Positions 741 through 32,482 of a DNA stretch of 34,334 bases are shown here, one piece after another (positions within the stretch are counted from its first letter, which is position 1; the number at the start of each line of letters is the position of its first letter). The notes under the pieces were generated by a model that saw only the letters and a list, made by a program, of their open reading frames with translations, had not been told where the DNA came from and made no database searches. Origin of the DNA: Gemmatimonadota bacterium (GTDB lineage: Bacteria > Gemmatimonadota > Gemmatimonadetes > Gemmatimonadales > JACORV01); assembly GCA_016209905.1 (NCBI GenBank), contig JACQVG010000053.1, positions 1 through 34,334 on the forward strand. Direction: 5' to 3'. The translations under genes and the position numbers were made by a program.

Positions 741-1500
741 GTGCGTTGATCGGTTGAGGCCGCCGGGTCAACTCCAGAGCGCTTCGGGCTCCTCGTCGAG
801 GCCGAGTGGCTCGCCCGCGAGAACAAGCGCACCACCCGCGCCCTGCAGGAGGCCAAGCTCAAGCTCTCTCAGGCGGCCATCGAGGCCATCGACTAGCCGC
901 CGCGCCGCGAGCTCGACAAGACCCTCATCCGCCAGCTCGCGACCTGCCAGTGGATCGCCGCCCACCAGAACGACCTCGTGATCGGCGCCACCAGTACGGG
1001 CAAGAGCTTTCTCGCCTGCGCGCTTGCTCAGCAGGCGTGCCGCAAGGGCTACCGCGCCTACTACCGCCGCACCTCGCGCCTCTTCGACGACCTCCGGCTC
1101 GCCCGGGCCGACGGCTCCTATGGCCGCCTGCTCGCCAAGCTCGCCCGCACCGACGTCCTGGTCCTCGACGACTGGGGCCTCGCCCCCCTCGGCGACCCGG
1201 AGCGCCGCGACGTCTTGGAGATCCTCGAAGACAGCTACGCGGTGCGCGCCACCATCGTCACCAGCTAGTTGCCGCCGACCGCGTGGCACGACTACATCGG
1301 GGAGCCCACGCTTGCCGACGCCATCTGCGACCGGTTATTTCACAACGCTCCTCGGATCGTCCTCAAGGGACCGTCCCGCCGAAAGGAGGCCACGCTCCAA
1401 GGCTGAGACCACCAGCCAGCGTCGCTCCGCTCCGAGCCCGAGCCCGACGTGTTCCCGATCACCGATCCGCGTGTTCCACATCAGCGGACTGCTTCCGAGG
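741..1500 (+). mobile_element. Decayed IS21-family element remnant (istB end)
   Basis: The segment holds the 3' part of an istB-like gene (768-1406), then two copies of a terminal-repeat-like motif, GTGTTCCCGATCA at 1449 and GTGTTCCACATCA at 1471. IS21-family ends typically carry multiple copies of such repeats. No istA is visible and the left end is missing, so the insertion was followed by deletion. The left limit is set by the loss of M42 homology. The right limit is approximate because no target duplication can be identified. Confidence 0.7.
768..1406 (+). pseudogene. istB: IS21 transposition helper ATPase IstB, broken
   Basis: IstB is the AAA+ ATPase that helps the IS21 transposase choose its target. 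Read in one frame, the segment gives FGLLVEAEWLARENKR, then a Walker A-like stretch, IGATSTGKSFLACALA, and a Walker B-like stretch, VLVLDDWGLAPL. It ends with the [12 protein letters not shown] block typical of the C-terminus. Two in-frame stops interrupt it. TAG at 894-896 stands where a Tyr is usual in a DY/HP-type sequence, and TAG at 1266-1268 stands where Gln is usual in TSQLP. The first roughly 40 codons are absent. Walker A reads GATSTGKS rather than the usual GPTGTGKS. It is a clear pseudogene. Confidence 0.8.
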
Positions 1501-1589
1501 GGACTGGTAGGCCCCGGACGAGCGGGGCCTCGACGCGGCGGTTCGGCCGCCGGTCGCTGCCGACCTCGTCGCTCGGCGCGGAAGCATGG

Positions 1590-1618
1590 TTGACCACCCC
1601 TGGGCACCCTCCTAGATT
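1590..1618 (+). promoter_or_regulatory. Probable sigma-70-type promoter of the thiC riboswitch leader
   Basis: TTGACC at 1590-1595 and TAGATT at 1613-1618 are 17 bases apart. The expected transcription start, about 7 bases downstream, falls at about 1625, exactly where helix P1 of the TPP aptamer begins. That coincidence strengthens the call. There is no experimental support. Confidence 0.65.
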
Positions 1619-1624
1619 GCCCAA

Positions 1625-3126
<1,502 letters not shown>

Positions 3127-8052: not shown

Positions 8053-9591
8053 GTGCGACCGAAAGCGATTGCCGCTCTTGCGCTTGCGTTCCACCTCGCG
8101 GGGTCGGCCGGGAAGCTTCGTCTGGAGGCGCAGACGGTTGCCGTCCCGCCGAGCATCGATTCCATCCGCCTGCGCGCGCATCTGTATTTCCTTTCGCACG
8201 ACCTGCTCGAAGGCCGCGGCACGGGCCGCCACGGGCACGATGTCGCCAGCCTGTATCTCGCCACCGAAGCGGCGCGCCTAGGCCTGGTCGGCCCGGGCCC
8301 GGGAGGCAGCTACTTCCAGGCAGTCCCGCTGGTCGAGGTCGACATCGACTCAGCTCGAACCAGCCTCGTTCTCTCGGTCGGTCGGAGCGAGGGCGGTGAC
8401 GGGACTCGCCGGCGCTTTACCTACCCCTCCGGCTTCATCCCCAACGTCGGAACGGCACGCACGTTGAGGGACTTCGGCGGTGACCTCGTCTTCGCCGGCA
8501 CTGCCCGCGGAATCCTGACGCACGCCGAGCGGCTGCCGACGCTGGCTGGCAAGGTGGCCGTCGTACGGGGGACGTTTGGATCCGAGGCGGCTGCCGCGGA
8601 CACTCTGCTGGCCCGGGGCGCCGCCGGCGTTGTGCATCTGGTCGGCGGCGAAGAGCGCTACGCTCTCTACGTCCGCAGTCGCGGTCGGTCTCGGATGTAC
8701 AGCGCGGATGGGACACAGGGGGGGTCGTCGTTCAGTCCTGAGATTCCGGCGGTGATCGCGAGCCCGGCTCTGGAGGAGCTTCTGCTGGCCGACTGGGGGG
8801 CCGGCCCCGATCCCGATCGCCCCGACGTCCTCGCTGGCCGGCGTCTCGAGGTCGAGATCGGGCTGGGCGAGCGCCGTATCGCGCCCAGAAACGTGGCGGC
8901 GCTCCTGCTGGGAGGGGAAGAGGCGCAGCGGTCAGAAGTCGTCGTTCTTGCCGCGCACTACGACCACCTCGGCATCTCGACGCCGGATGCAAGTGGCGAC
9001 TCGATCTACAACGGCTTCTCGGACAACGCGGCGGGCGCCGCCATGCTCCTGGGCGTCGCGGAAGCGATGGCCCGTGGGCGCCGGCCGGCGCGGTCGGTGC
9101 TGCTTCTCTGGTTCACCGGGGAAGAGTTCGGGTTGCTCGGATCCGACTACTTCGCGGCGCACCCGATGGTCGCGCCGCAACGGATGATTGGGGCCATCAA
9201 CCTCGACGCCGGCGCGCCGCCGGCGCCGAGTGTCACCTGGCGGATCGAGGGTGGAGATGTCTCGACCCTCGGGCAACTCGCAGTCGAGGTGGCACGGCGC
9301 GCCGGCTGGGAAGCCCGGACGGCGCCGGCGACGCCGAACTCCGATCATTTTCCCCTGCTTCGGATCGGCGTGCCGGCGGTCTTTCTCATTCCCGGCCCGG
9401 GCGCGTTTGAGGGGCAGAGCGCCGAATCGTCGCGGGCACTCCGGCAGCGGTGGGATCGCTATCACCAGGCATCCGATCAGTGGGCTGCGGATTTCCCGCT
9501 GGCGGGGTTGGTGCGGTACGCGGATTTCGCGTACCGCCTCGCGACGGAGCTCGGAGCCGGGGCGCGCCCGCGCATGATCACGTCACGCTAG
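8053..9591 (+). CDS. Secreted M28-family metallopeptidase with PA-type insert
   Basis: This is a 512-residue exported zinc aminopeptidase-like protein. An N-terminal signal-like hydrophobic stretch (AIAALALAFHLAGSA) is followed by the LSHDLLEGRGTG block common in bacterial M28 proteins. A protease-associated domain-like insert follows (about 130-260), then the catalytic domain. Zinc and catalytic residues are all visible: His302 in AAHYDHLG, Asp324 in SDNAAG, the pair Glu357-Glu358 in TGEEFGLLGS, Asp in INLD, and His in NSDHFPLL. GTG at 8053 is used. It probably digests peptides in the periplasm or outside the cell. It is upstream of, but probably not co-transcribed with, the MMPL gene, which has its own promoter-like sequence. 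Confidence 0.9.
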   Translation: MRPKAIAALALAFHLAGSAGKLRLEAQTVAVPPSIDSIRLRAHLYFLSHDLLEGRGTGRHGHDVASLYLATEAARLGLVGPGPGGSYFQAVPLVEVDIDSARTSLVLSVGRSEGGDGTRRRFTYPSGFIPNVGTARTLRDFGGDLVFAGTARGILTHAERLPTLAGKVAVVRGTFGSEAAAADTLLARGAAGVVHLVGGEERYALYVRSRGRSRMYSADGTQGGSSFSPEIPAVIASPALEELLLADWGAGPDPDRPDVLAGRRLEVEIGLGERRIAPRNVAALLLGGEEAQRSEVVVLAAHYDHLGISTPDASGDSIYNGFSDNAAGAAMLLGVAEAMARGRRPARSVLLLWFTGEEFGLLGSDYFAAHPMVAPQRMIGAINLDAGAPPAPSVTWRIEGGDVSTLGQLAVEVARRAGWEARTAPATPNSDHFPLLRIGVPAVFLIPGPGAFEGQSAESSRALRQRWDRYHQASDQWAADFPLAGLVRYADFAYRLATELGAGARPRMITSR

Positions 9592-13111: not shown

Positions 13112-15184
13112 ATGGACCGCTTCGCGCTAGCTGTCATGCTCGTCGCCGCGCCCCTGTCGCTCGCCGCGCAGGAGCTCCCGTTCGTCACCCGCGCCGAGTA
13201 CGGCGCTCTCGTAGGCACGATCTCGGGCGACGCCGCCTACGAGCACCTGCGCTTCACAACTCAGTTCCACAAGCCGCGAGGGGGAACAGAGGGATTGCTG
13301 GCGGTCGCCCAGTACGTCGAGGCCCGCGCTCGCGAGTACGGCCTCGACGAGGTCCGCCTGATCCGCCAGGCGGCGAGCTATCCGTCGTGGAACGCGCGGG
13401 CAGCGGAGCTCTGGGTACAGGGGGCTGCCGCACCGGGCACGGCGCCCGAATGGAGGCGCGTGGCGTCGCTGCGCCAGACGCCCCTGCACCTCGCCGATTT
13501 CAGCCAGTCGGCGGACGTGACGACCGAGATCGTGGACGTCGGCAGGGGCGCTGACAGCGCGAGCTACCGCGACCGCGACGTCCGCGGCAAGCTGGCGCTG
13601 GCCTTCGGCCCGATCGACAGCGTGGTCCTGGAGGCCGTCACAAGGCGCGGCGCGGCGGGCGTCGTGGTCCGGCCCGACCCGATGGGGGCGCAGGCGATGG
13701 ACTATCCCGATCAAGTGCGATGGAGCCGCACGCCGGCGGCGTTCGCCTTCGTGCTCTCACACCGCCAAGGGACCGCGCTCGCGCAGCTCCTCGCGCACGG
13801 CCCGCGACAGGCACGCGCCTCGGTGGAGACGCTCACCGACAGCGGTCAGGGATGGCAGGTCATGGTCGAGGGAGTGCTGCGCGGCACCGATCCGGCGGCA
13901 CGCGCGATCGTCCTCACCGGACACATGCAGGAAGAGAAGTTCTCGGCGAACGACGACGGCTCCGGGGTCGCCAACGTGCTGGAAATCTCGCGTGCGCTGT
14001 CGCGCCTCATCGCTTCCGGCCAGCTGCCCCGTCCGCGACGCACGATCCGGTTCTGGTGGACCACGGAGATCGGGAGTGAGCGGCAGTATTTCGCGGACCA
14101 CCCCGACGAGGTCGCTCGGCTGTGGCTGAACATCAACCAGGACATGGTGGGCGCGAACCAAGGGCAAGACGTGCTGCGGGTGCAGAACATCACCCGCGTC
14201 CCCTGGACGCGTGCCCACTTCCTCGACGAGGTGGCGGCGGCCACGATCGACTTTCTGGTGGCTGCGAACGGCGCCCAGCTCGCTTCCCGGCAGGTGCCGG
14301 TGCCGCCGCGCTGGAGGCCGGCGCCGATCGTGGCGCACCTTGGCTCACGGCACCGCTTCGCCGCGGCCCTGATCCCGTTCCACAACAACACGGACCACAT
14401 GACCTTCACGGAAGCGCCGATCGGGCTTCCTGCGATCACCTTCACAAACTGGCCGGACAACTACATCCACACCACCGACGACGACTTGTGGAACATCGAT
14501 CGCACGCAGTTGGAGCGGAATGCCGTCGCGGTCGCGATGATGACGGTCTTCCTGGCGCGCGCAGGCGACGCCGATGCGCCGGCACTGGTCGCCGCGACCA
14601 CGGGGCGCGGCCTGGAGCGGGTCGCGGAGGCATACCGACTCGCTGCGTCGTGGCTACTCGGCGCGGACTCGACCGGGCGGGAGGACGCGTACTGGCTCGG
14701 CCGGCCGCAGATCGAGACGGTCGCGGCCGTCGCGGCCCGGCACGTCCGCACGGTTGGCGACGTGGCGACCAGCCCCCCCGCGCTGCGCCTGATCGCACGC
14801 GGCGCGTCGCAAGTCGAGGCGGACGGCCGCGCGCGTCTGGCCGACCTCGATGCGCTGTGGCGGGAACTCGCCGGCCGCGCTCCGCCGGCACCGCGGCAGG
14901 CGGCGGCCGAACAGAGGCTGGAGAGCCTCCGGCCCACCCTCGTCGCGGGCCCGCGGGAATTCCTCGACGGCCGCGGCCGGGCGCGGGCCGTTGCCGGCCT
15001 GCACGATCTGATGGCGTTCGAGATCGCGAACGCGGTGGACGGCCGCCGCAGCGGACTAGACATCTACCAGCTGGTCAGTGCGGAGGCGCGAGCCGCGGGG
15101 GCACACTACTATGGCGTGGTCACCCCGGCCATGGTGGAGCAGTACCTGGCGAACCTCGTCGCTGCCGGCCTGGTGCGGCGCTAA
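13112..15184 (+). CDS. Secreted M28-like peptidase, altered active site
   Basis: This 690-residue exported protein begins with a clear signal peptide ending LSLAAQ. A PA-like region (about 110-250) precedes an M28-type catalytic domain, and a long helical C-terminal part (about 470-690) has no assigned family. Expected zinc ligands are visible: His271 in VLTGHMQEE, Asp281/282 in SANDDGSG, Asp344 in NQDMVGAN and His429 in NNTDHMTF. The usual Glu-Glu pair is Thr318-Glu319 in WWTTEIGS, so the catalytic Glu may be missing, somewhat as in DUF4910-type relatives. GAGG precedes the ATG. The TAA at 15182 interlocks with the stop of the convergent gene. Confidence 0.87.
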   Translation: MDRFALAVMLVAAPLSLAAQELPFVTRAEYGALVGTISGDAAYEHLRFTTQFHKPRGGTEGLLAVAQYVEARAREYGLDEVRLIRQAASYPSWNARAAELWVQGAAAPGTAPEWRRVASLRQTPLHLADFSQSADVTTEIVDVGRGADSASYRDRDVRGKLALAFGPIDSVVLEAVTRRGAAGVVVRPDPMGAQAMDYPDQVRWSRTPAAFAFVLSHRQGTALAQLLAHGPRQARASVETLTDSGQGWQVMVEGVLRGTDPAARAIVLTGHMQEEKFSANDDGSGVANVLEISRALSRLIASGQLPRPRRTIRFWWTTEIGSERQYFADHPDEVARLWLNINQDMVGANQGQDVLRVQNITRVPWTRAHFLDEVAAATIDFLVAANGAQLASRQVPVPPRWRPAPIVAHLGSRHRFAAALIPFHNNTDHMTFTEAPIGLPAITFTNWPDNYIHTTDDDLWNIDRTQLERNAVAVAMMTVFLARAGDADAPALVAATTGRGLERVAEAYRLAASWLLGADSTGREDAYWLGRPQIETVAAVAARHVRTVGDVATSPPALRLIARGASQVEADGRARLADLDALWRELAGRAPPAPRQAAAEQRLESLRPTLVAGPREFLDGRGRARAVAGLHDLMAFEIANAVDGRRSGLDIYQLVSAEARAAGAHYYGVVTPAMVEQYLANLVAAGLVRR

Positions 15185-20400: not shown

Positions 20401-21804
20401 TCACGTGTCGCGACGGATGCGTTGGCGGACGCGCAAATACTCCGACCGGGAGCGGGCATCGAGACGGAACCGACCGGTGCCGGCGTCGTCCACGAAGGCA
20501 ACGGTCAGACGGTGCTCGCGGTAAACCCAGAACAGCACTCGACTCCGACCCTGGAGGTCCGCGCGCCGGTCGAGCACTTCATCGGGCTCGCCGAGGGTAA
20601 TGAACACTTCGCCGCGCTCGGTGAGCCAGCCCGGGATCCCCTCGTCGCGGAACCGATCGTTGGCGACTTGAAGCCGGACGAAGTACTGGTCGAGCGCCTC
20701 GTTCTCGGCCGTGGCCGGCGCGGGGTCCGTAGACCGCCAGAAGCGGAGCCACGCAGCGCCCCGCTCGCTAGGCGGCGCTTCGAGGAGGGCGCGCAGCGTG
20801 TCGGGCGACGTGAAGTGGCGAAGGAGCGAGACGATTTCCTCCAGGCTGGAAACCGCCCATCGGTCGGAGAACGACACCAGGAACGGGGCCGTGACCGTGA
20901 CGCCGGCGGCGGCGACTGCGACCCGCAGCTCGTAGCGGCCGATCGAGAGCTGCGACGGCGGCACCGTGAAGGCCGCCCCCCGCACCGGCCCGGCGACCTC
21001 GATCCGGCTGGTGTCCATCCAGGCCACCCGACCCGAGGCGTCGAAGGCCGAAACAACCAGCACGGTGCCCGCCGGAACGCCGTACGACTCCACGTAGAAA
21101 TGCAGCGAGTCGATTCCGTACTGCACCGTGCTCCTCGGGTTCGCCACGAGGTCGGGCGCCACGGAAAGCGCCGTTCGCGACCGACTTTCGTAGACGGCGA
21201 GCGGCGTCGCTACGCCGGGTGACGAAACCGGGGACACTGTCAGTGGTTCCTGGCGGTGGCTCGCGTTCGGCCCGTTGCGGTCCCGGATGCTGATCGTCAG
21301 GACGTACTGGCCGGCCGCCAACCTGACGAACTGCTGGTAGATCACGCTCTCGTCCAACCGCTGGGTTTCGCGCAACGTGCTCACGCGGACCCGCTCGTCG
21401 CGGACGACCTGCTGCGCGATCTCCGTCCCTCTGCGGAAGATCAGCTCCACGTGATACTCGGCCACGAAGGCGTCCGCGTCCCGGCGAAACGTCAGCCCGT
21501 GGTTTCGAAGCGACAGCGCCACCACGGCAATCAGCGAGTCGGGCGTCGGCCCTGCGAAGAGGTGCACCGATCCCACGAACGGGATCGGACCCGTCTCGGC
21601 GATCAGGCCCATGGCGCCGTAGACCACCGACGGGCCGAGGATCTGGGGGGCTCTGGCCGGAGCGAGCGGGGGGTTGCCCGAAGTATCTCCCTGCCCGGGC
21701 GATCCGCAGGCCGCGAGCGGCAGGAGGAGGGACCAGCGAGTGAGGCGTTTCAGCGAAGCAAGCGTGTGGGCCTCGGTGCCGGGAGCCGGGCTGCGTCGGC
21801 GCAA
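20401..21804 (-). CDS. GWxTD-domain lipoprotein
   Basis: The product has a lipoprotein signal (KRLTRWSLLLPLAAC, lipobox LAAC). A long beta-rich region follows, then near residue 392 the GWxTD motif (GWLTERGEVFITLGEPDE) with its downstream strand block. GWxTD proteins are typical of Gemmatimonadota, Acidobacteriota and Bacteroidota-related lineages and have no settled function. The TTG at 21804 makes the frame 467 residues, but it overlaps a likely -10 box. The signal peptide would look most natural from a CTG at 21753 (450 residues), so the start is uncertain. It leads a co-directional series with the kinase-like gene and polA. Confidence 0.85.
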   Translation of the reverse strand: MRRRSPAPGTEAHTLASLKRLTRWSLLLPLAACGSPGQGDTSGNPPLAPARAPQILGPSVVYGAMGLIAETGPIPFVGSVHLFAGPTPDSLIAVVALSLRNHGLTFRRDADAFVAEYHVELIFRRGTEIAQQVVRDERVRVSTLRETQRLDESVIYQQFVRLAAGQYVLTISIRDRNGPNASHRQEPLTVSPVSSPGVATPLAVYESRSRTALSVAPDLVANPRSTVQYGIDSLHFYVESYGVPAGTVLVVSAFDASGRVAWMDTSRIEVAGPVRGAAFTVPPSQLSIGRYELRVAVAAAGVTVTAPFLVSFSDRWAVSSLEEIVSLLRHFTSPDTLRALLEAPPSERGAAWLRFWRSTDPAPATAENEALDQYFVRLQVANDRFRDEGIPGWLTERGEVFITLGEPDEVLDRRADLQGRSRVLFWVYREHRLTVAFVDDAGTGRFRLDARSRSEYLRVRQRIRRDT

Positions 21805-24435: not shown

Positions 24436-26139
24436 ATGATCGTGGCCTTGCTCAGCGCAGTGGCCTTCACCGCGGATTCCTCGGCGATCCAGCGGCTCGA
24501 TGCGCGCGTCCGGGAATACCTTGAGGCGACGTGGCGGCGGCATCCGGAGTCGGCCACCGCCGTCGGCATTCATCGCTACGACCGGCTGTCGAGCGACCTC
24601 TCCTTGCGGGCCGCGGCGGTCGAGCGACGCGCCGTCGCGGCGGCGCTGGACGCGCTGCGGCGGGACGTCGACACCGCTACGCTCGACGAGGGGTCCCGCA
24701 TCGACTTCCTGCTCTTCCACGCCGCGCTCGCCACGGCCGTGCGCAGCGCCGAGATCAGCGAGCCGCTGCGGCGGATCCCCGGCGCCTACATTCCCTTCGG
24801 TGGCGTCTACCAGCTCATCGAGGACGGCGGGCCCGCGCGCGGGCAGCTTCTCGCCGCGGCGACGGCGCGGCTCCGGACGTGGCCGATGGCGTTTGCGCTG
24901 GCGCGGCGCCAACTCGACCGCCCTCCGCGCCTGTGGACCGAGCTGGCCCTGGGCAGCGCACAGGGAATCGCACGGTATCTGCGGACCCGCGTGGCCGCTG
25001 CCGCCGACTCGGCGCCCCCGCGGGTGGGCGCCCCATTGCGGGGCGCCGCTGCGCGCGCGGCCGATGCCCTCGATGCATTCCGACGCTGGATGCAGGACAC
25101 CTTGCTGATCCGCTCGGAGGGGTCGTGGGAAATCGGCGCACCGCACTACGACTGGCTGCTCGCCAACAGCAAGCTCCTGCCGTTCACCGCGAATGCGCTG
25201 ATCGACCTGGGCCGCGAGGTGATGCGCGAGACCGAAGACTCTCTCGCCGCCCTGGGTCGTCGCATCGACTCGACCCGCTCCTGGCAGCAGCTGGCGGACT
25301 CGTCGAAGACCCTCCACCCTCCGCGCGACAGCGTGCGCGCAGCGTACGCTCGCGAGACCGCCCGCGCCCGCGACTTCATCGAGCGGCGAGGCCTATTCGC
25401 TCTTCCGGCCGACGAGCGTCTGGAGATGATCGATACGCCGCCCAATCTCCGGGCGACCTACGCGTACGGGGGCTACGACGCCCCGGCACCCTTCGCCAGC
25501 GAGCGAGTCGGGCGCTTCTTCGTGACGCCGGTCGATTCCGAGCTGTCCAGCGGAGACGCGGAGTCGAAGCTGCGTGGCCACAACTACGGCTGGATCACGG
25601 TGGTCGCCGTCCACGAGGGTTATCCGGGGCACCACCTGCAGACGGTGAAGGCGCTGGAAAACCCTCGACTCGTGCGACGTCTGTTCGGCAGCGAGGTCTT
25701 CGGGGAGGGCTGGGGGCTGTATGCGGAAGAGTTGATGTACCGGAGCGGGTTCTACCGCGACTCGCTGGCTCGGCTCACGCAGCTGCGGATGCGGCTCTGG
25801 CGTGCCGCGCGCGTCGTGATCGACCCGTCGCTGCACACCGGCCGGATGAGCCTCGAGGACGCGGTGCAGTTCTTCGTCGACCGGGTCGGACTGGAGCGCC
25901 GCGACGCCTGGGCCGAGGTGGCCCGCTACACGACCTGGCCGACGCAGGCCATCAGCTACATCGTCGGCATGCGGGAACTGGAACGGCTGCGCGAGGATGT
26001 GAGGAGCGCGTTGGGGAGCGGCTTCGACGAGCGCGCCTTTCACGAAGCGGTGCTCGCCGAAGGATCGCTCCCACCGATCCTGATGCGTCGCGCCGTCGCG
26101 ACGCGCCTCGGGCTGGCACCCCGCCGACTGTCGCCATGA
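24436..26139 (+). CDS. DUF885-family metallopeptidase-like protein
   Basis: This 567-residue protein of the DUF885 family is common among exported enzymes of soil bacteria and thought to be a zinc-dependent carboxypeptidase-type hydrolase. The key motif AVHEGYPGHHLQ places His393, Glu394, His399 and His400 in an HExxxxHH arrangement. A downstream EGWGLYAEELM with Glu424 would supply another ligand. The N-terminus (MIVALLSAVAFTADSSA) resembles a short signal peptide. GGGAG precedes the ATG. The C-terminus matches the family pattern FHEAVLAEGSLPPILM. It is followed 71 bases on by an exported M24-like gene on the same strand, suggesting a joint peptide-processing role. Confidence 0.9.
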   Translation: MIVALLSAVAFTADSSAIQRLDARVREYLEATWRRHPESATAVGIHRYDRLSSDLSLRAAAVERRAVAAALDALRRDVDTATLDEGSRIDFLLFHAALATAVRSAEISEPLRRIPGAYIPFGGVYQLIEDGGPARGQLLAAATARLRTWPMAFALARRQLDRPPRLWTELALGSAQGIARYLRTRVAAAADSAPPRVGAPLRGAAARAADALDAFRRWMQDTLLIRSEGSWEIGAPHYDWLLANSKLLPFTANALIDLGREVMRETEDSLAALGRRIDSTRSWQQLADSSKTLHPPRDSVRAAYARETARARDFIERRGLFALPADERLEMIDTPPNLRATYAYGGYDAPAPFASERVGRFFVTPVDSELSSGDAESKLRGHNYGWITVVAVHEGYPGHHLQTVKALENPRLVRRLFGSEVFGEGWGLYAEELMYRSGFYRDSLARLTQLRMRLWRAARVVIDPSLHTGRMSLEDAVQFFVDRVGLERRDAWAEVARYTTWPTQAISYIVGMRELERLREDVRSALGSGFDERAFHEAVLAEGSLPPILMRRAVATRLGLAPRRLSP

Positions 26140-28113: not shown

Positions 28114-29100
28114 GTGCCAGGGGTCCCGAGTCGCGGGCCCGTCGCCCGCAGGGCGGACCGAGGCCCCCTGAACCGCCTGCTGCGCCGCGGACCGTTATGG
28201 GGTGGCGCGGCACTCGCGGCGCCGATTCTCTGGCTGGCGTTCGTGTGGCCCCCGCCGACGTGGTGGCGCAGCCACTGGCCCGCGGAGACGGCGTTCATGG
28301 CGATGCGGGCGCGGCAGCTCGCGGCCGCGGGGGACACCACGCCGCGGCAGTACCGGCCGGTGCCGCGCGACTCGATCGCCCCCTGGCTATTGCGGGCGGC
28401 GACCACCGGTGAGGACGACGGGTTCTTCGCACATCACGGGATCGATTATCGCGCCGTGCGGGAGGCGCTGGGCTATCGACGCGCCGCCTTCACCTGGAGC
28501 GATCGGCGCGACCGCGCGGAGCTTCGCCGGGTGCTCGCGCGCGCCTGGGCTCGTCGCGAGCGGCTCCGGGGCGCGAGCACGATCACGCAGCAGCTGGCCA
28601 GGAACCTCTACCTGTCTGCCGCGCGCAGTCCGCTGCGGAAGGTCAAGGAGGCCGTGATCGCGTACCGCCTGGAGTGGGCGCTATCCAAGCCTCGGATCCT
28701 GGCGCTTTACCTCAACGTGGCGGAGTTCGGCCCGAACCTGTGGGGCGTGGACGCCGCAAGCCGGCGGTACTTCCACCGCGGCGCCGACCGCGTCTCGCTG
28801 GAGCAGGCGGCGCTCCTGGTCGCCACGCTGCCGCACCCGCTGACATCGAACCCCGCCTACCGACCGGGCAGGACGCGGTGGCGCCAGCAGCTCATCCTGC
28901 GTCGGCTGCGCGGCGAGGATGTCCTCGTGCCGAAGGGAGAGGCGGAGGAGGTTCCGGCCCCCGCCGCCGACACCGCATCCCACGCCGACTCGCTCGTGGT
29001 GCCCCGAGACGATTCAGCCGCCGCGCCGAGGAACGCCCCCGATACGGCGGCTGCGCCACCCAAGCCGCTCTTGGGACCGACGCTCAGTCAACCAACCTGA
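28114..29100 (+). CDS. mtgA: Monofunctional peptidoglycan glycosyltransferase (GT51, MtgA-like)
   Basis: This 328-residue inner-membrane enzyme polymerises lipid II into glycan strands. One membrane helix lies near residues 28-45. GT51 motifs follow in order: GEDDGFFAHHGID with catalytic Glu100, GASTITQQLARNLYL (from 153), KVKEAVIAYRLE and LALYLNVAEFG. There is no penicillin-binding domain; the C-terminus is a disordered Ala/Pro-rich tail of about 60 residues. The start is GTG at 28114, without a clear ribosome site, right after the rnpB hairpin. Its last 17 bases overlap the end of dnaN on the other strand. Confidence 0.92.
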   Translation: MPGVPSRGPVARRADRGPLNRLLRRGPLWGGAALAAPILWLAFVWPPPTWWRSHWPAETAFMAMRARQLAAAGDTTPRQYRPVPRDSIAPWLLRAATTGEDDGFFAHHGIDYRAVREALGYRRAAFTWSDRRDRAELRRVLARAWARRERLRGASTITQQLARNLYLSAARSPLRKVKEAVIAYRLEWALSKPRILALYLNVAEFGPNLWGVDAASRRYFHRGADRVSLEQAALLVATLPHPLTSNPAYRPGRTRWRQQLILRRLRGEDVLVPKGEAEEVPAPAADTASHADSLVVPRDDSAAAPRNAPDTAAAPPKPLLGPTLSQPT

Positions 29101-30196
29101 GCGGCATCACCAAGCACAGATAAGACGACGCGTCATCCCAGCCGACGGGCTCGGCCGTCGTCGCGCGCTCCGGCGCCTTGAACGTGAATCGCACCTCGTC
29201 CGTCGGCATGTACTTGAGCATCTCGAGCAGGTAAGCGGCGTTGAAGCCGATCTCAAGCGCGTCGCCCTCATAGGTCACCGCCATCTCGTCCTGGGCCTCG
29301 CCGAGATCGGGCGTCTGCACGCTGAATTTGACGGTCCCGCCCCCGAAGGCGAGGCGGATCCGGTGCGTCTGATCGCTCGCGAGGATGCTCATGCGCCGCA
29401 GCGCGGCGGCCATCGCCGCCTTGTCCACGGTCGCGAACTTGTCGTTCTCCCTGGGAATGACCTGCTCATAGTTGGGGTAGGGGCCCTCGATGAGTCGCGT
29501 GTATACCTGCGTGCCGCCCGAACGAAAGCCGAGGTGGTTCTCGCTCCTCGCGATCTCGACCTCCTCGTCGTGCCCGAAGAGGCGGCGGATCTGCTCGAGC
29601 GCTTTGGGCGGAACGATCAAGTCGGCCTGCGTGGCGCCGTCACCCTCCAGCGATACTTCCATCCGGGCCAGCCGGTGCCCGTTGGTGGCCACCATCCGCA
29701 TCCGGTCCTTGCGCAGCTCCCACAGGACACCGTTGAGGATCGGCCGACTCTCTTCGGTCGAGACCGCGAAGGCGACGTGGCCGATGAGTTTGTGGAGATC
29801 CTTCGCGGGAGCCTTCCACGCACCGTCGAATTTGACATGGGGAAAGGACGGGAACTCGTCGCGTGGCAGGCCGAGGAGCCGGAACTTGCTCTTGCCGCAC
29901 TCGAGCTGCGCCCGCTGCTCGCCCGCGGAGCTGATGCGGACCGGCGAGGTCGGCAGCTCGCGCGCAATGTCCGAGAGCTTCTTGGCCGGCAAGGTGATGG
30001 ACCCTTCTTCATCCACCTCGGCGCGGACCGTCGTGGAAACGGCGATGTCCAGATCGGTCCCGGAGAGACGGAGCCCGTCCTTCCGGGCCTCAAGCAGGAT
30101 GTTCGACAAAACGGGCAGCGTGGTCTTCGCCGGCACGCTCGATACGACGGCGAGCAGACCCTCCTGTAGCTTTTCGCGGGTGATCGTGAACTTCAT
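29084..30196 (-). CDS. dnaN: DNA polymerase III beta subunit (sliding clamp)
   Basis: This 370-residue ring-forming clamp tethers the replicative polymerase to DNA. The start is ATG 30196 after GAGGG; the frame stays open to 30418, but that part is the intergenic region. The N-terminal MKFTITREKLQEGLLAVVSSVPAKTTLPVLSNILLEA is classic for the family. GATNGHRLA-type sequence appears as VATNGHRLARMEV, and FNAAYLLEML and the C-terminal MPLRLVD are present. It follows dnaA on the same strand across a 225-bp gap. It is not followed by recF: the next gene is convergent and overlaps it. Confidence 0.98.
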   Translation of the reverse strand: MKFTITREKLQEGLLAVVSSVPAKTTLPVLSNILLEARKDGLRLSGTDLDIAVSTTVRAEVDEEGSITLPAKKLSDIARELPTSPVRISSAGEQRAQLECGKSKFRLLGLPRDEFPSFPHVKFDGAWKAPAKDLHKLIGHVAFAVSTEESRPILNGVLWELRKDRMRMVATNGHRLARMEVSLEGDGATQADLIVPPKALEQIRRLFGHDEEVEIARSENHLGFRSGGTQVYTRLIEGPYPNYEQVIPRENDKFATVDKAAMAAALRRMSILASDQTHRIRLAFGGGTVKFSVQTPDLGEAQDEMAVTYEGDALEIGFNAAYLLEMLKYMPTDEVRFTFKAPERATTAEPVGWDDASSYLCLVMPLRLVD

Positions 30197-30421
30197 CCAA
30201 CCCTCATGGGGTGCGAGTACGGCACTACCTCCACGATCTAATAAAGAATCTAGTAGCCGTAGTAGGGAATGTGGAACTGTGGGTGAGCCGGCTATTTCGC
30301 GCCGTGCGGCCCACTTGGACACCCCCACCGCGGAGCCTGCGATGTGGACGCAGTGCGCGGCTTCCCCATCGCCTGCCATACCGTCCACAGCCGCCCACAC
30401 CCATGCGCAAGCCGCCAACGT
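30197..30421. other. dnaA-dnaN gap, candidate replication origin (oriC)
   Basis: This 225-bp gap contains five TGTGG-type motifs resembling half or near DnaA boxes (consensus TTATCCACA). They are TGTGGAACT (30270) and TGTGGGTGA (30278) head to tail, TGTGGACGC (30343), and in reverse CCGTCCACA (30381) and CCGCCCACA (30391). An AT-rich stretch, TCTAATAAAGAATCTAG, lies at 30237-30253. None is a perfect box, so the call rests on clustering and location. dnaN must also have its promoter here unless it is read through from dnaA. Confidence 0.45.
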
Positions 30422-31816
30422 CTAAAGTGAGGACAACTCGGTCCGCGCCTGGCCCACTCGGTCGCGGAAGGTGTGGTCGCGCGCCATCTGGCGGCCCACC
30501 TTGTCCAGACTGTGGATGACCGTGGAGTGGTCACGGCCGCCGAAGGCCTGGCCGATCTCGACGAGCTGCATCCCGAGGATGTCCCGGGCGAGATACATCG
30601 CCACCTGACGGGGCACGGTGAGCCGCTTGGTCCGGGCCTTCGAGCGCAGGCCCTCCGGCGTCACGCCCCAGCGGCGGGCCACCACCTCCTGCACGCGGTC
30701 AATGGACGGCGGGGCGCGGCGGCCGTTCCCGCCGCCCTCCCCGTCCGTGCCGGCCTTGATCTTGTCGGCGAGCGCTTCCCGGGCCAGGTCGATGGTGATC
30801 TCGCGATGCTTGAGTGACGCGAACAGCAGCAGCTTGATAATGCAGCCTTCGAGTTCGCGGACCGAGCTGCGGACGTGCTCCGCGATGAACCCCAGCACGT
30901 CGTCGGGGATGGTCTGCTCGAGGTGGTCCTCCTCGGCCTTCTTGCGGAGGATCGCCGTCCGGTGCTCGAGGTCCGGTTGGCCGATGTCGGCGACCATGCC
31001 CGACTCGAAGCGGGACACGAGGCGCGCCTCGAGGCCCGGGATCTCGGTCGGCGGCCGGTCGGACGTGAGGACGATCTGCTTCCCGGTCTGATGCAGGGCG
31101 TTGAAGGTGTGGAAGAACTCCTCTTGGGTCATCTCCTTCCGCTCGAGGAAGTGGACGTCGTCGACGAGAAGGACGTCCAACTCCTGCCGGTACCGGCGGC
31201 GGAAGTCGGGCATCTTGCCGGCGTGGATGTGCTCGATGACCTCGTTGATGAACTGTTCGGCGCCGACGTAGACCGCCCGCCCTTCGGGCGACCGCTCGAT
31301 CAGCGCGTGGGCAACCGCCTGCATGAGGTGCGTCTTGCCGAGGCCCGTGGCACCGTAGATGAAGAACGGGTTGTAGGCCTTGCCGGGCGCTTCGACAACG
31401 CCGTACGCCGCAGCGGCCGCCAGCTCATTCGACTTGCCGATGACGAAGGTGCGGAAGGTATACCGCTCGTTGAGCGGCGTGGCCCAGGCGGGTGGCCCTC
31501 CGGCCGGTGCCGCTGCGGCCCCCGGCGGAGCCACGAAGAAGTCCATCTGGGGGCGTCGTGAGCGCTCCTCTTGCACGCGGAAGGACACCTCGAATCGGGT
31601 TCCGAACAGCTCGCTCCCGATCTCGGAGAGCAGCTTGGCGTGCTTCGACTCGTTCCACTCGGCGGCGAACTGGTCGGGCGCCGCCAGGACGAGTCTGTCC
31701 TCCTCGAGGGCCACTGCGTCGACCGGCTCCAGCCACGTCCGTAGCGTGGGCTCCGGCAAGCGGCCGCGCGCCTGGTCGAGGAGGCGCTTCCAGGTGTCTT
31801 GTGCTGATTGCTGCAT
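30422..31816 (-). CDS. dnaA: Chromosomal replication initiator DnaA
   Basis: This 464-residue AAA+ ATPase opens the origin. Domain I is residues 1-85 and domain II is very short (Ala/Pro-rich, about 95-112). Domain III has Walker A GATGLGKTH at 155-163 and Walker B LLVDD at 216-220. Domain IV carries the DNA-binding signature GRDHSTVIHS from 427. The ATG at 31816 lies about 40 bases after a good promoter but has no strong ribosome site. It is divergent from rpmH and upstream of dnaN, the standard origin layout. Confidence 0.98.
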   Translation of the reverse strand: MQQSAQDTWKRLLDQARGRLPEPTLRTWLEPVDAVALEEDRLVLAAPDQFAAEWNESKHAKLLSEIGSELFGTRFEVSFRVQEERSRRPQMDFFVAPPGAAAAPAGGPPAWATPLNERYTFRTFVIGKSNELAAAAAYGVVEAPGKAYNPFFIYGATGLGKTHLMQAVAHALIERSPEGRAVYVGAEQFINEVIEHIHAGKMPDFRRRYRQELDVLLVDDVHFLERKEMTQEEFFHTFNALHQTGKQIVLTSDRPPTEIPGLEARLVSRFESGMVADIGQPDLEHRTAILRKKAEEDHLEQTIPDDVLGFIAEHVRSSVRELEGCIIKLLLFASLKHREITIDLAREALADKIKAGTDGEGGGNGRRAPPSIDRVQEVVARRWGVTPEGLRSKARTKRLTVPRQVAMYLARDILGMQLVEIGQAFGGRDHSTVIHSLDKVGRQMARDHTFRDRVGQARTELSSL

Positions 31817-31861
31817 CGAGTCCGGGCGCTGGGATCGAGCGGTGGGTCTAAAGGGCGCCCG

Positions 31862-31890
31862 AAGGTACGAAGCGAATGTGGGAAAGTCAA
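31862..31890 (-). promoter_or_regulatory. Putative dnaA promoter
   Basis: Reading leftward, TTGACT (31890-31885) and TACCTT (31867-31862) are 17 bases apart. A DnaA-box-like TGTGGGAAA (31877-31885) lies within it, which would permit self-control. Confidence 0.6.
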
Positions 31891-31892
31891 CC

Positions 31893-31922
31893 TTGACCCC
31901 GGTCTTCGGCCACGTGTACGTT
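31893..31922 (+). promoter_or_regulatory. Putative rpmH operon promoter
   Basis: TTGACC (31893-31898) and TACGTT (31917-31922) are 18 bases apart, 40 bases before the GTG of rpmH. Its -35 box is two bases from that of the dnaA promoter. Confidence 0.6.
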
Positions 31923-31961
31923 TCGCGGCCTTCGGAGCTTTGAGGAGTGAGAGGCTGACCG

Positions 31962-32123
31962 GTGCAACCGACCTATCGTCCGCGCAATCGCAAACGCATC
32001 AACAAGCACGGGTTTCGGGCCCGGATGAAGACCCGCTGGGGCCGGGCCGTGCTGTCGCGGCGGCGCAAGAAGGGCCGCAAGCGTCTGGCCGTGCGGCTCC
32101 CGTCCAAACACCACGGCGGTTGA
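31962..32123 (+). CDS. rpmH: Ribosomal protein bL34
   Basis: This 53-residue, strongly basic large-subunit ribosomal protein starts at GTG 31962. The sequence opens [18 protein letters not shown] and continues [20 protein letters not shown], the typical bL34 pattern. The C-terminal LPSKHHGG is slightly longer than the usual L(S/T)V ending. GGAG lies 16 bases upstream and GAGG at 31950-31953 is a nearer candidate site. The TGA overlaps the TTG of rnpA in TTGA, so the two are probably coupled. Confidence 0.97.
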
Positions 32124-32482
32124 CGGCCGAGGGGCTGCCGCGGTCGTTTCGGATTCGGCGTGCGTCCGAACTGCGCGCGCTCATGACACAGGGGAAGCGC
32201 CATCGAACAGATCATCTGGATCTGTTCATCCGGCCTTCCCCTGTCGGCTGTTCCCGGCTGGCGCTCGTCGTGCCGCGCTTCGCGCACACGGCCGTCCGGC
32301 GCAACCGGCTGCGCCGTCAGCTGCGCGAGATCGGCCGGCGCCAAGTGCTGCCCGCGCTGGCGGTCCCGAGCGACGTCGCCGTGCGGGCGCGGCGGAGCGC
32401 CTACGAAACGAGCCTGGAGACTCTGCGCGGGGAATTGTTGCGGAGCCTGTGTCCATCGCCGCCCGAACACTCATCCTCCTGA
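32120..32482 (+). CDS. rnpA: RNase P protein component
   Basis: This 120-residue basic protein assists the RNase P RNA in tRNA 5' maturation. It shows the RNR signature in [16 protein letters not shown] and the N-terminal [18 protein letters not shown], with [16 protein letters not shown] between them. The start is the TTG at 32120, overlapping the rpmH stop; the frame is open further 5', but that portion overlaps rpmH in another frame. The end overlaps yidD by 34 bases. Its RNA partner is encoded about 4 kb to the left in this window. Confidence 0.93.

Follow-up and report, generated by a model that had tools for sequence, protein, structure and literature searches.

The 222-bp gap between dnaA and dnaN in the 34,334-nucleotide stretch analysed here (the window) is, to judge from its sequence, very probably a chromosomal oriC of a known kind in the usual place, in an uncultured Gemmatimonadota bacterium. 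The preliminary description had named this gap a candidate oriC, and the proposal is well supported, mainly because a DnaA-trio array adjoins tandem DnaA boxes, with such an array present in 102/109 dnaA–dnaN gaps of the same order. The middle bases of the trios in Gemmatimonadota origins change disproportionately from A to C on the trio strand, and one trio of the window itself has such a C.

DnaA boxes, trios and AT-rich DNA in the dnaA–dnaN gap

The genome to which the window belongs, as contig 11, comprises 2.17 Mb in 225 contigs and is 89.5% complete. Among the best 80 of 590 matches, from a set that may exclude records very close to this genome, the nearest named records to the window's DnaA are MAGs labelled Gemmatimonadales, Gemmatimonadetes and Gemmatimonadaceae (63–73% identity), and a single match is labelled Nitrospiraceae (61% identity). 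On these grounds we assign the window to the order Gemmatimonadales. Other proteins encoded in the window include a DUF885 protein (24436–26136), a GWxTD-domain protein (20401–21804) and two separate M28 peptidases (8053–9588 and 13112–15181). The location between the two genes given in the preliminary description stands, but its length of 225 bp counts the dnaN start codon, without which the gap measures 222 bp (Table 1).

Table 1 Features of the dnaA–dnaN region, in window coordinates.
Feature	Position	Strand	Remarks
dnaN	29084..30199	-	Three beta-clamp domains; start codon 30197-30199
dnaA–dnaN gap, proposed oriC	30200..30421	.	222 bp; TGTGG cluster and conserved trio array
Reversed trio motif, weak	30223..30229	-	GGTAGTG, GTAGT core only
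AT-rich segment, likely unwinding element	30226..30255	.	GC 0.33; overlaps trios 4 and 5
Trio array CTA CTA CGG CTA CTA	30251..30265	-	Trio strand + (5'-TAG TAG CCG TAG TAG-3')
Trio 3	30257..30259	+	Middle base C on trio strand (CGG on -)
Spacer TTCC	30266..30269	-	4 nt
Downstream BUS box	30270..30277	-	GTTCCACA, abuts upstream box
Upstream BUS box	30278..30286	-	TCACCCACA, 2 mismatches to TTATCCACA
DnaA-box-like site	30343..30351	+	TGTGGACGC on +
DnaA-box-like site	30381..30389	-	TGTGGACGG on -
DnaA-box-like site	30391..30399	-	TGTGGGCGG on -
dnaA	30422..31816	-	Bac_DnaA, Bac_DnaA_C and DnaA_N domains (N-terminal, AAA+, HTH)

The gap holds the five TGTGG motifs in both orientations that had been described, three on the + strand (from 30270, 30278 and 30343) and two on the - strand (CCACA at + 30385–30389 and 30395–30399). 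The check proposed alongside them, motif enrichment, came out in favour: 20 further contigs from this genome, 177 kb together, have 1.12 TGTGG per kb counting both strands, giving 0.25 expected in the gap (nearer 0.26 once three of these contigs that consist of N, amounting to 6.6 kb, are discounted). The densest 222 bp hold 4 motifs in the background contigs and 6 in the window, compared with 5 in the gap itself. The AT-rich stretch was likewise confirmed, as no 30-mer anywhere in the window has a lower GC content than this segment, which ties with two others.

A motif scan of the gap found no perfect TTATCCACA, as had been noted. Across 159 Gemmatimonadota gaps (109 from the window's order and 50 from other orders) TTATCCACA is rare, with 6 cases and a 2.5-fold enrichment over the dnaA coding sequence. 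The box core in these gaps is [T/C]CCACA, with a mean of 3.4 per gap, and relative to the dnaA coding sequence CCCACA is enriched 20-fold, TTTCCACA 21-fold (89 cases) and CGTCCACA 19-fold (29 cases). The suggestion of a GC-shifted box such as TGTGGACGN therefore holds in part: it corresponds to one enriched form (CGTCCACA) but is not the consensus, and is one among several box forms because the commoner TTTCCACA, as well as CCCACA, is enriched as much.

The preliminary description overlooked the layout that becomes apparent on the dnaA strand, which reads TCACCCACA GTTCCACA TTCC CTA CTA CGG CTA CTA GATTCTTTATTAG, that is, two tandem DnaA boxes, a 4-nt spacer and an array of five trios. The array matches (CTA)5 at 13/15 positions, and the background contigs contain no site with 13 or more matches. 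The basal unwinding system (BUS) of Bacillus subtilis is described as co-oriented DnaA boxes followed, after a short spacer, by a trio array that reads 3'-GAT-5' on the other strand (PMC8287927, PMC6669920). The window resembles it in its tandem co-oriented boxes, short spacer, 3'-GAT-5' trio consensus, AT-rich segment, location between dnaA and dnaN and conservation of the residue Asn187 in DnaA, but differs in that its boxes are weaker, trio 3 has a middle C and three consecutive NAN trios are missing.

This last difference bears on detection, since the published BUS rule calls for three or more consecutive trios with a middle A, NAN (PMC8287927). In our version, which implements only the first step of the rule (≥3 NAN trios 0–16 nt after a box with ≤2 mismatches), no BUS was found on either strand of the window gap, where the middle bases run A A C A A. 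The upstream box TCACCCACA, with its 2 mismatches and 12 nt to the trios, lies within the limits set for a BUS box (≤2 mismatches and a distance of ≤16 nt), and once C is allowed the rule returns one site in the gap, with five trios 12 nt after TCACCCACA. As a general detector, the relaxed N[AC]N rule was rejected: it raised the count from 48/109 gaps to 76, but shuffled controls with the boxes kept reached 79.4, and the count rose as high with N[AG]N (82 of the 109 gaps) or N[AT]N (79). Since shuffled controls score just as well as N[AC]N, any usable rule must take trio positions 1 and 3 into account too.

Conservation of the array and placement of the probable origin

The order was sampled with 121 genomes, and dnaA loci were taken from 110 of them (the window's genome included); among the 11 left out, several listed matches were partial or weak. 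Both genes are present in 109 loci, the contig of L045 ending too early. Defining a trio array as 11 or more of 15 matches to five CTA trios, we found arrays in 6/6 gaps of the window's family (f1), 54/54 of family f3 and 42/49 of family f2, a clear array being missing from 7/49 f2 gaps. The distance from box to array is less uniform, as spacer length varies across the phylum. In f1, the end of CCACA lies 4 nt from the array in 5/5 scorable arrays, and the position of the downstream BUS box reads TTCCACA in the other five origins. In the sample from other orders, 18/20 canonical arrays are separated by 1 or 4 nt from the end of CCACA, while in f2 the distance equals 1 modulo 3 in only 15/29. 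Most f3 arrays (30/39) stand 12 nt from the last CCACA, the second box there being degenerate. TCCACA boxes also occur 3' of the array in 24/42 f2 gaps (1.24 expected); unlike in f2, TCCACA is absent from the enriched 6-mers downstream of the array in f1 and f3.

A short motif from the array was tried and rejected as a stand-alone origin marker, as CTACTANNNCTACTA is present in 68/121 genomes and often lies off the origin. It occurs twice in the window's own genome, once at the gap array and once inside a reading frame whose translation we take to resemble UvrB, and a reversed control of CTACTANNNCTACTA also has one occurrence there.

Boxes beside dnaA could in principle serve only to regulate dnaA or dnaN, with the origin elsewhere, for example upstream of dnaA, and the 240 bp upstream of dnaA do hold boxes too (mean 4.97 per kb, 104 loci). 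Boxes are nevertheless more concentrated in the dnaA–dnaN gap, at 12.04 per kb, and it alone has trio arrays with at least 12 matches (94/104 gaps against 0/104 of the upstream 240-bp stretches). Cumulative GC skew, sampled as 40 stretches of 20 kb in each of two single-contig relatives, agrees with this placement in one of them. In G059, of the same order, the samples at 3.55 and 3.68 Mb bracket the minimum, dnaA lying at 3.69 Mb, and the skew range was reached in 4/2000 permutations. In G092 the skew is noise (range reached in 1340/2000 permutations), and a purely regulatory role of the boxes could draw on this weak, uninformative signal. Sweeps of codon third positions and gene orientation were not significant in either G092 (105 and 74 of 200 permutations) or, over 20 stretches, G059 (166 and 116 of 200), and GC skew within the window shows no clear flip. 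Weighing these observations, we regard a regulatory role with an origin elsewhere as highly improbable, and return to the gap as the probable origin.

A or C at the middle of the trios

The window's DnaA aligned to the B. subtilis BUS structure 8btg across residues 5–460, which makes Asn191 the counterpart of B. subtilis Asn187, and asparagine occupies this position in 143/143 pattern-matched DnaAs (160 DnaAs in total). DnaA-like proteins of other architectures also turned up in the order. Locus L293 of genome G008 encodes a 651-aa frame (1143–3098, - strand) that by eye has two tandem DnaA-type AAA+ regions and no DnaA-type HTH, and among the matches listed, many same-order genomes have long open frames matching the DnaA AAA+ region at ~42%. 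Genome G083 carries a second DnaA of 360 aa (L297, 1045–2127, + strand) with AAA+ and a GRDHSTV HTH, in which inspection by eye shows no N-terminal domain; G055 has a second match of a similar kind.

In B. subtilis, C can replace A in a trio, both bases carrying the amine contacted by Asn187, and C works at trio 1 in vitro (PMC10721633). The middle T of the trio complement has been called highly conserved (PMC8235120). If the box-guided filament, base capture and amine contact are carried over from that species by analogy, DnaA would bind the tandem boxes (30270–30286) and be guided over the 4-nt spacer onto the + strand, where successive monomers would each take one trio and capture its middle base, and the AT-rich segment, which overlaps and follows the array, would be opened by DnaA. 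Trio 3 would be read despite its middle C, because Asn191 would contact the primary amine common to A and C. In this lineage A would be required at trio 1, with A or C allowed in the trios that follow, and the remaining boxes would be accessory. We infer that replication starts in the gap and that DnaA uses the C-trio instead of skipping it; we hold it quite likely that the C-trio is read, and consider the reading as a whole, a Gemmatimonadota origin opened by the BUS mechanism with the C-trio read, to be likely.

The layout, its conservation and an A/C bias can be seen directly in the sequences of the window and its relatives. To quantify the bias, the register of each array was set by trio positions 1 and 3 only, because no middle base should be favoured, with at least 9/10 matches, a unique placement and a box-like sequence upstream; 71/159 Gemmatimonadota origins qualified. 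Parsimony on a DnaA tree gave, for these 71 origins, 24 A>C, 5 A>G, 1 A>T and 2 C>A changes at the middle base of the trio strand, and three of the five A>G changes, all at trio 1, are probably due to misregister. Under the same treatment, changes away from consensus comprised 32 transitions and 11 transversions at trio position 3 (90 origins), and three transitions and four transversions at trio position 1 (50 origins).

These counts bear on another explanation, in which the C of trio 3 is decay: the trio is skipped, its bases drift, and the array functions with the two trios on either side. A-trios do flank trio 3 on both sides in the window, and box-proximal trios are reported to matter most in B. 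subtilis (PMC10201434). Under drift, however, A>G should be no rarer than A>C, against the 24 A>C and 5 A>G inferred, and position 3 of the same trios shows mostly transitions. Base composition points the same way. Within arrays, triplets of the form C.A number 292 CTA, 28 CGA, 1 CCA and 1 CAA, whereas elsewhere in the same gaps, with boxes masked, there are 128 CTA, 216 CGA, 244 CCA and 203 CAA (Fisher p = 1.4e-11, relatedness of the origins ignored), so that CCA is as common as CGA outside the arrays. A looser register (8/10, 91 origins) admits more A>G, as decay would have it, with 29 A>C, 12 A>G and 3 A>T events counted by genus and trio; the A>C excess is smaller but persists. We judge decay of trio 3 to be unlikely. 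The A>C bias at the middle base fits, at the level of sequence, the amine-contact result from B. subtilis.

Trio 1 departs from this latitude, its middle base being A in 98/98 same-order arrays. Other phyla show a similar trend in small numbers, with 13 C, 6 G and 2 T at the middle base under the looser threshold (26 origins) and 5 C, 1 G and 1 T under the stricter one (14 origins). The idea that C-trios are rarer in these other, partly DnaD-bearing phyla was unsupported, as they make up 13/130 trios there and 36/435 in Gemmatimonadota.

A run of C-trios is possibly present in genus g62, of the same class but another order. CCACA, four bases and [C/T]TA TGA TGA follow one another in 15/18 of its origins, the remainder comprising one with CCACC instead of CCACA and two without TGATGA. 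In these 15/18 origins the block [C/T]TATGATGA stands where a CTA array would be (L306 and L309 are examples of g62 loci). The fourth trio is CGA in 12/16, and its middle base on the strand as read is G in 15/16. If the spacer is 4 nt, the trio strand would have A, C, C and then C as middle bases; a shift of the register by two lengthens the spacer to 6 nt and gives A twice, followed mostly by G. We favour the 4-nt register because distances of 1 or 4 nt predominate in the other-order arrays (18/20) and 4 nt in those of f1 (5/5).

A reversed trio motif beyond the array and implications

A second, shorter signal appears to lie ~20 nt past the array on the other strand in some of these lineages, with no evident DnaA box of its own by eye. 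It was scored against 400 shuffles as CTA/CTG trio dimers in reversed orientation in the 46 nt that follow the array, in a test that was devised after the sequences had been seen and so was not blind, and in which genomes of the same genus are not independent. In f3, reversed dimers occur in 38/54 gaps (11.8 expected, shuffle maximum 21), or 16.5/28 when weighted by genus (5.6 expected, shuffle maximum 13.2), and GTAGT-type pentamers concentrate 17–23 nt past the array. The f2 count of 17/42 (8.4 expected, shuffle maximum 14) falls to 4.8/15 when weighted by genus (2.6 expected), and with shuffles of up to 5.8 is not beyond chance. In f1 the dimers occur in 3/6 (0.5 expected, a count that shuffles also reach), and in other phyla in 2/43 (1.2 expected). 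As controls, same-strand dimers in f3 gave 6/54 (3.3 expected) and reversed dimers upstream of the array in f1 and f3 together 9/60 (5.5 expected). An earlier scan using the 9-mer GTAGTAGTA had given a weak signal. The window's own motif holds the GTAGT core only and does not count as a reversed dimer.

The motif sits just upstream of dnaN and is able to pair with the array, and the window segment folds with z -2.1, all of which would suit a part of the dnaN leader, a promoter or a hairpin that is no origin element. Such folding is not general: the reversed motif was rejected as a general RNA hairpin, with mean fold z of -0.66 in f1, -0.38 in f3 and -0.87 in f2 and values below -2 only in 2/6, 2/54 and 7/42 gaps, respectively, and no Rfam match was found in 29900–32200. 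A leader, promoter or hairpin is still a distinct possibility, somewhat short of an even chance. That the origins of this lineage hold two opposed trio signals, with DnaA also assembling on the second strand after the AT-rich segment has opened and marking it for the second helicase, seems to us a doubtful proposition, though one with a parallel in Bacillus, where this second-strand role has been proposed for DnaD at the DnaD recognition element (DRE). The two are alike in that the signal lies on the strand opposite the trios, which here carries the reversed trio motif, but the B. subtilis DRE is the complement of the trios themselves (TnnT pairs) and is bound by DnaD, while the motif here lies beyond the array (PMC10201434). 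DciA, described as an operator of the replicative helicase (PMC5109545), was found in 29/31 genomes, and the two genomes without it are 71% and 80% complete.

Among the literature entries listed, judged by title and the opening of the abstract, none dealt with an origin from Gemmatimonadota, with C-trios in nature or with a reversed trio; novelty is claimed only within the literature searched, because supplementary files lay outside it and DoriC may well list Gemmatimonadota origins.

This is very probably an ordinary origin in an ordinary place, and the modest but real extra is evolutionary support for A-or-C recognition, together with the reversed trio motif. The analysis places a probable origin in a little-studied phylum. 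It also lends natural, evolutionary support to what biochemistry in a single species had claimed, namely selection by DnaA of the middle-base amine, which admits A and C but excludes G and T. A limit comes from trio 1, whose middle base is A throughout the same-order arrays counted, though C works there in vitro in B. subtilis (PMC10721633). Origin searches that demand a middle A can miss such origins, as happens at the window gap. The reversed trio motif, if functional, would bear on the loading of the second helicase, a step that has been called unsolved (PMC10721633, PMC10201434).
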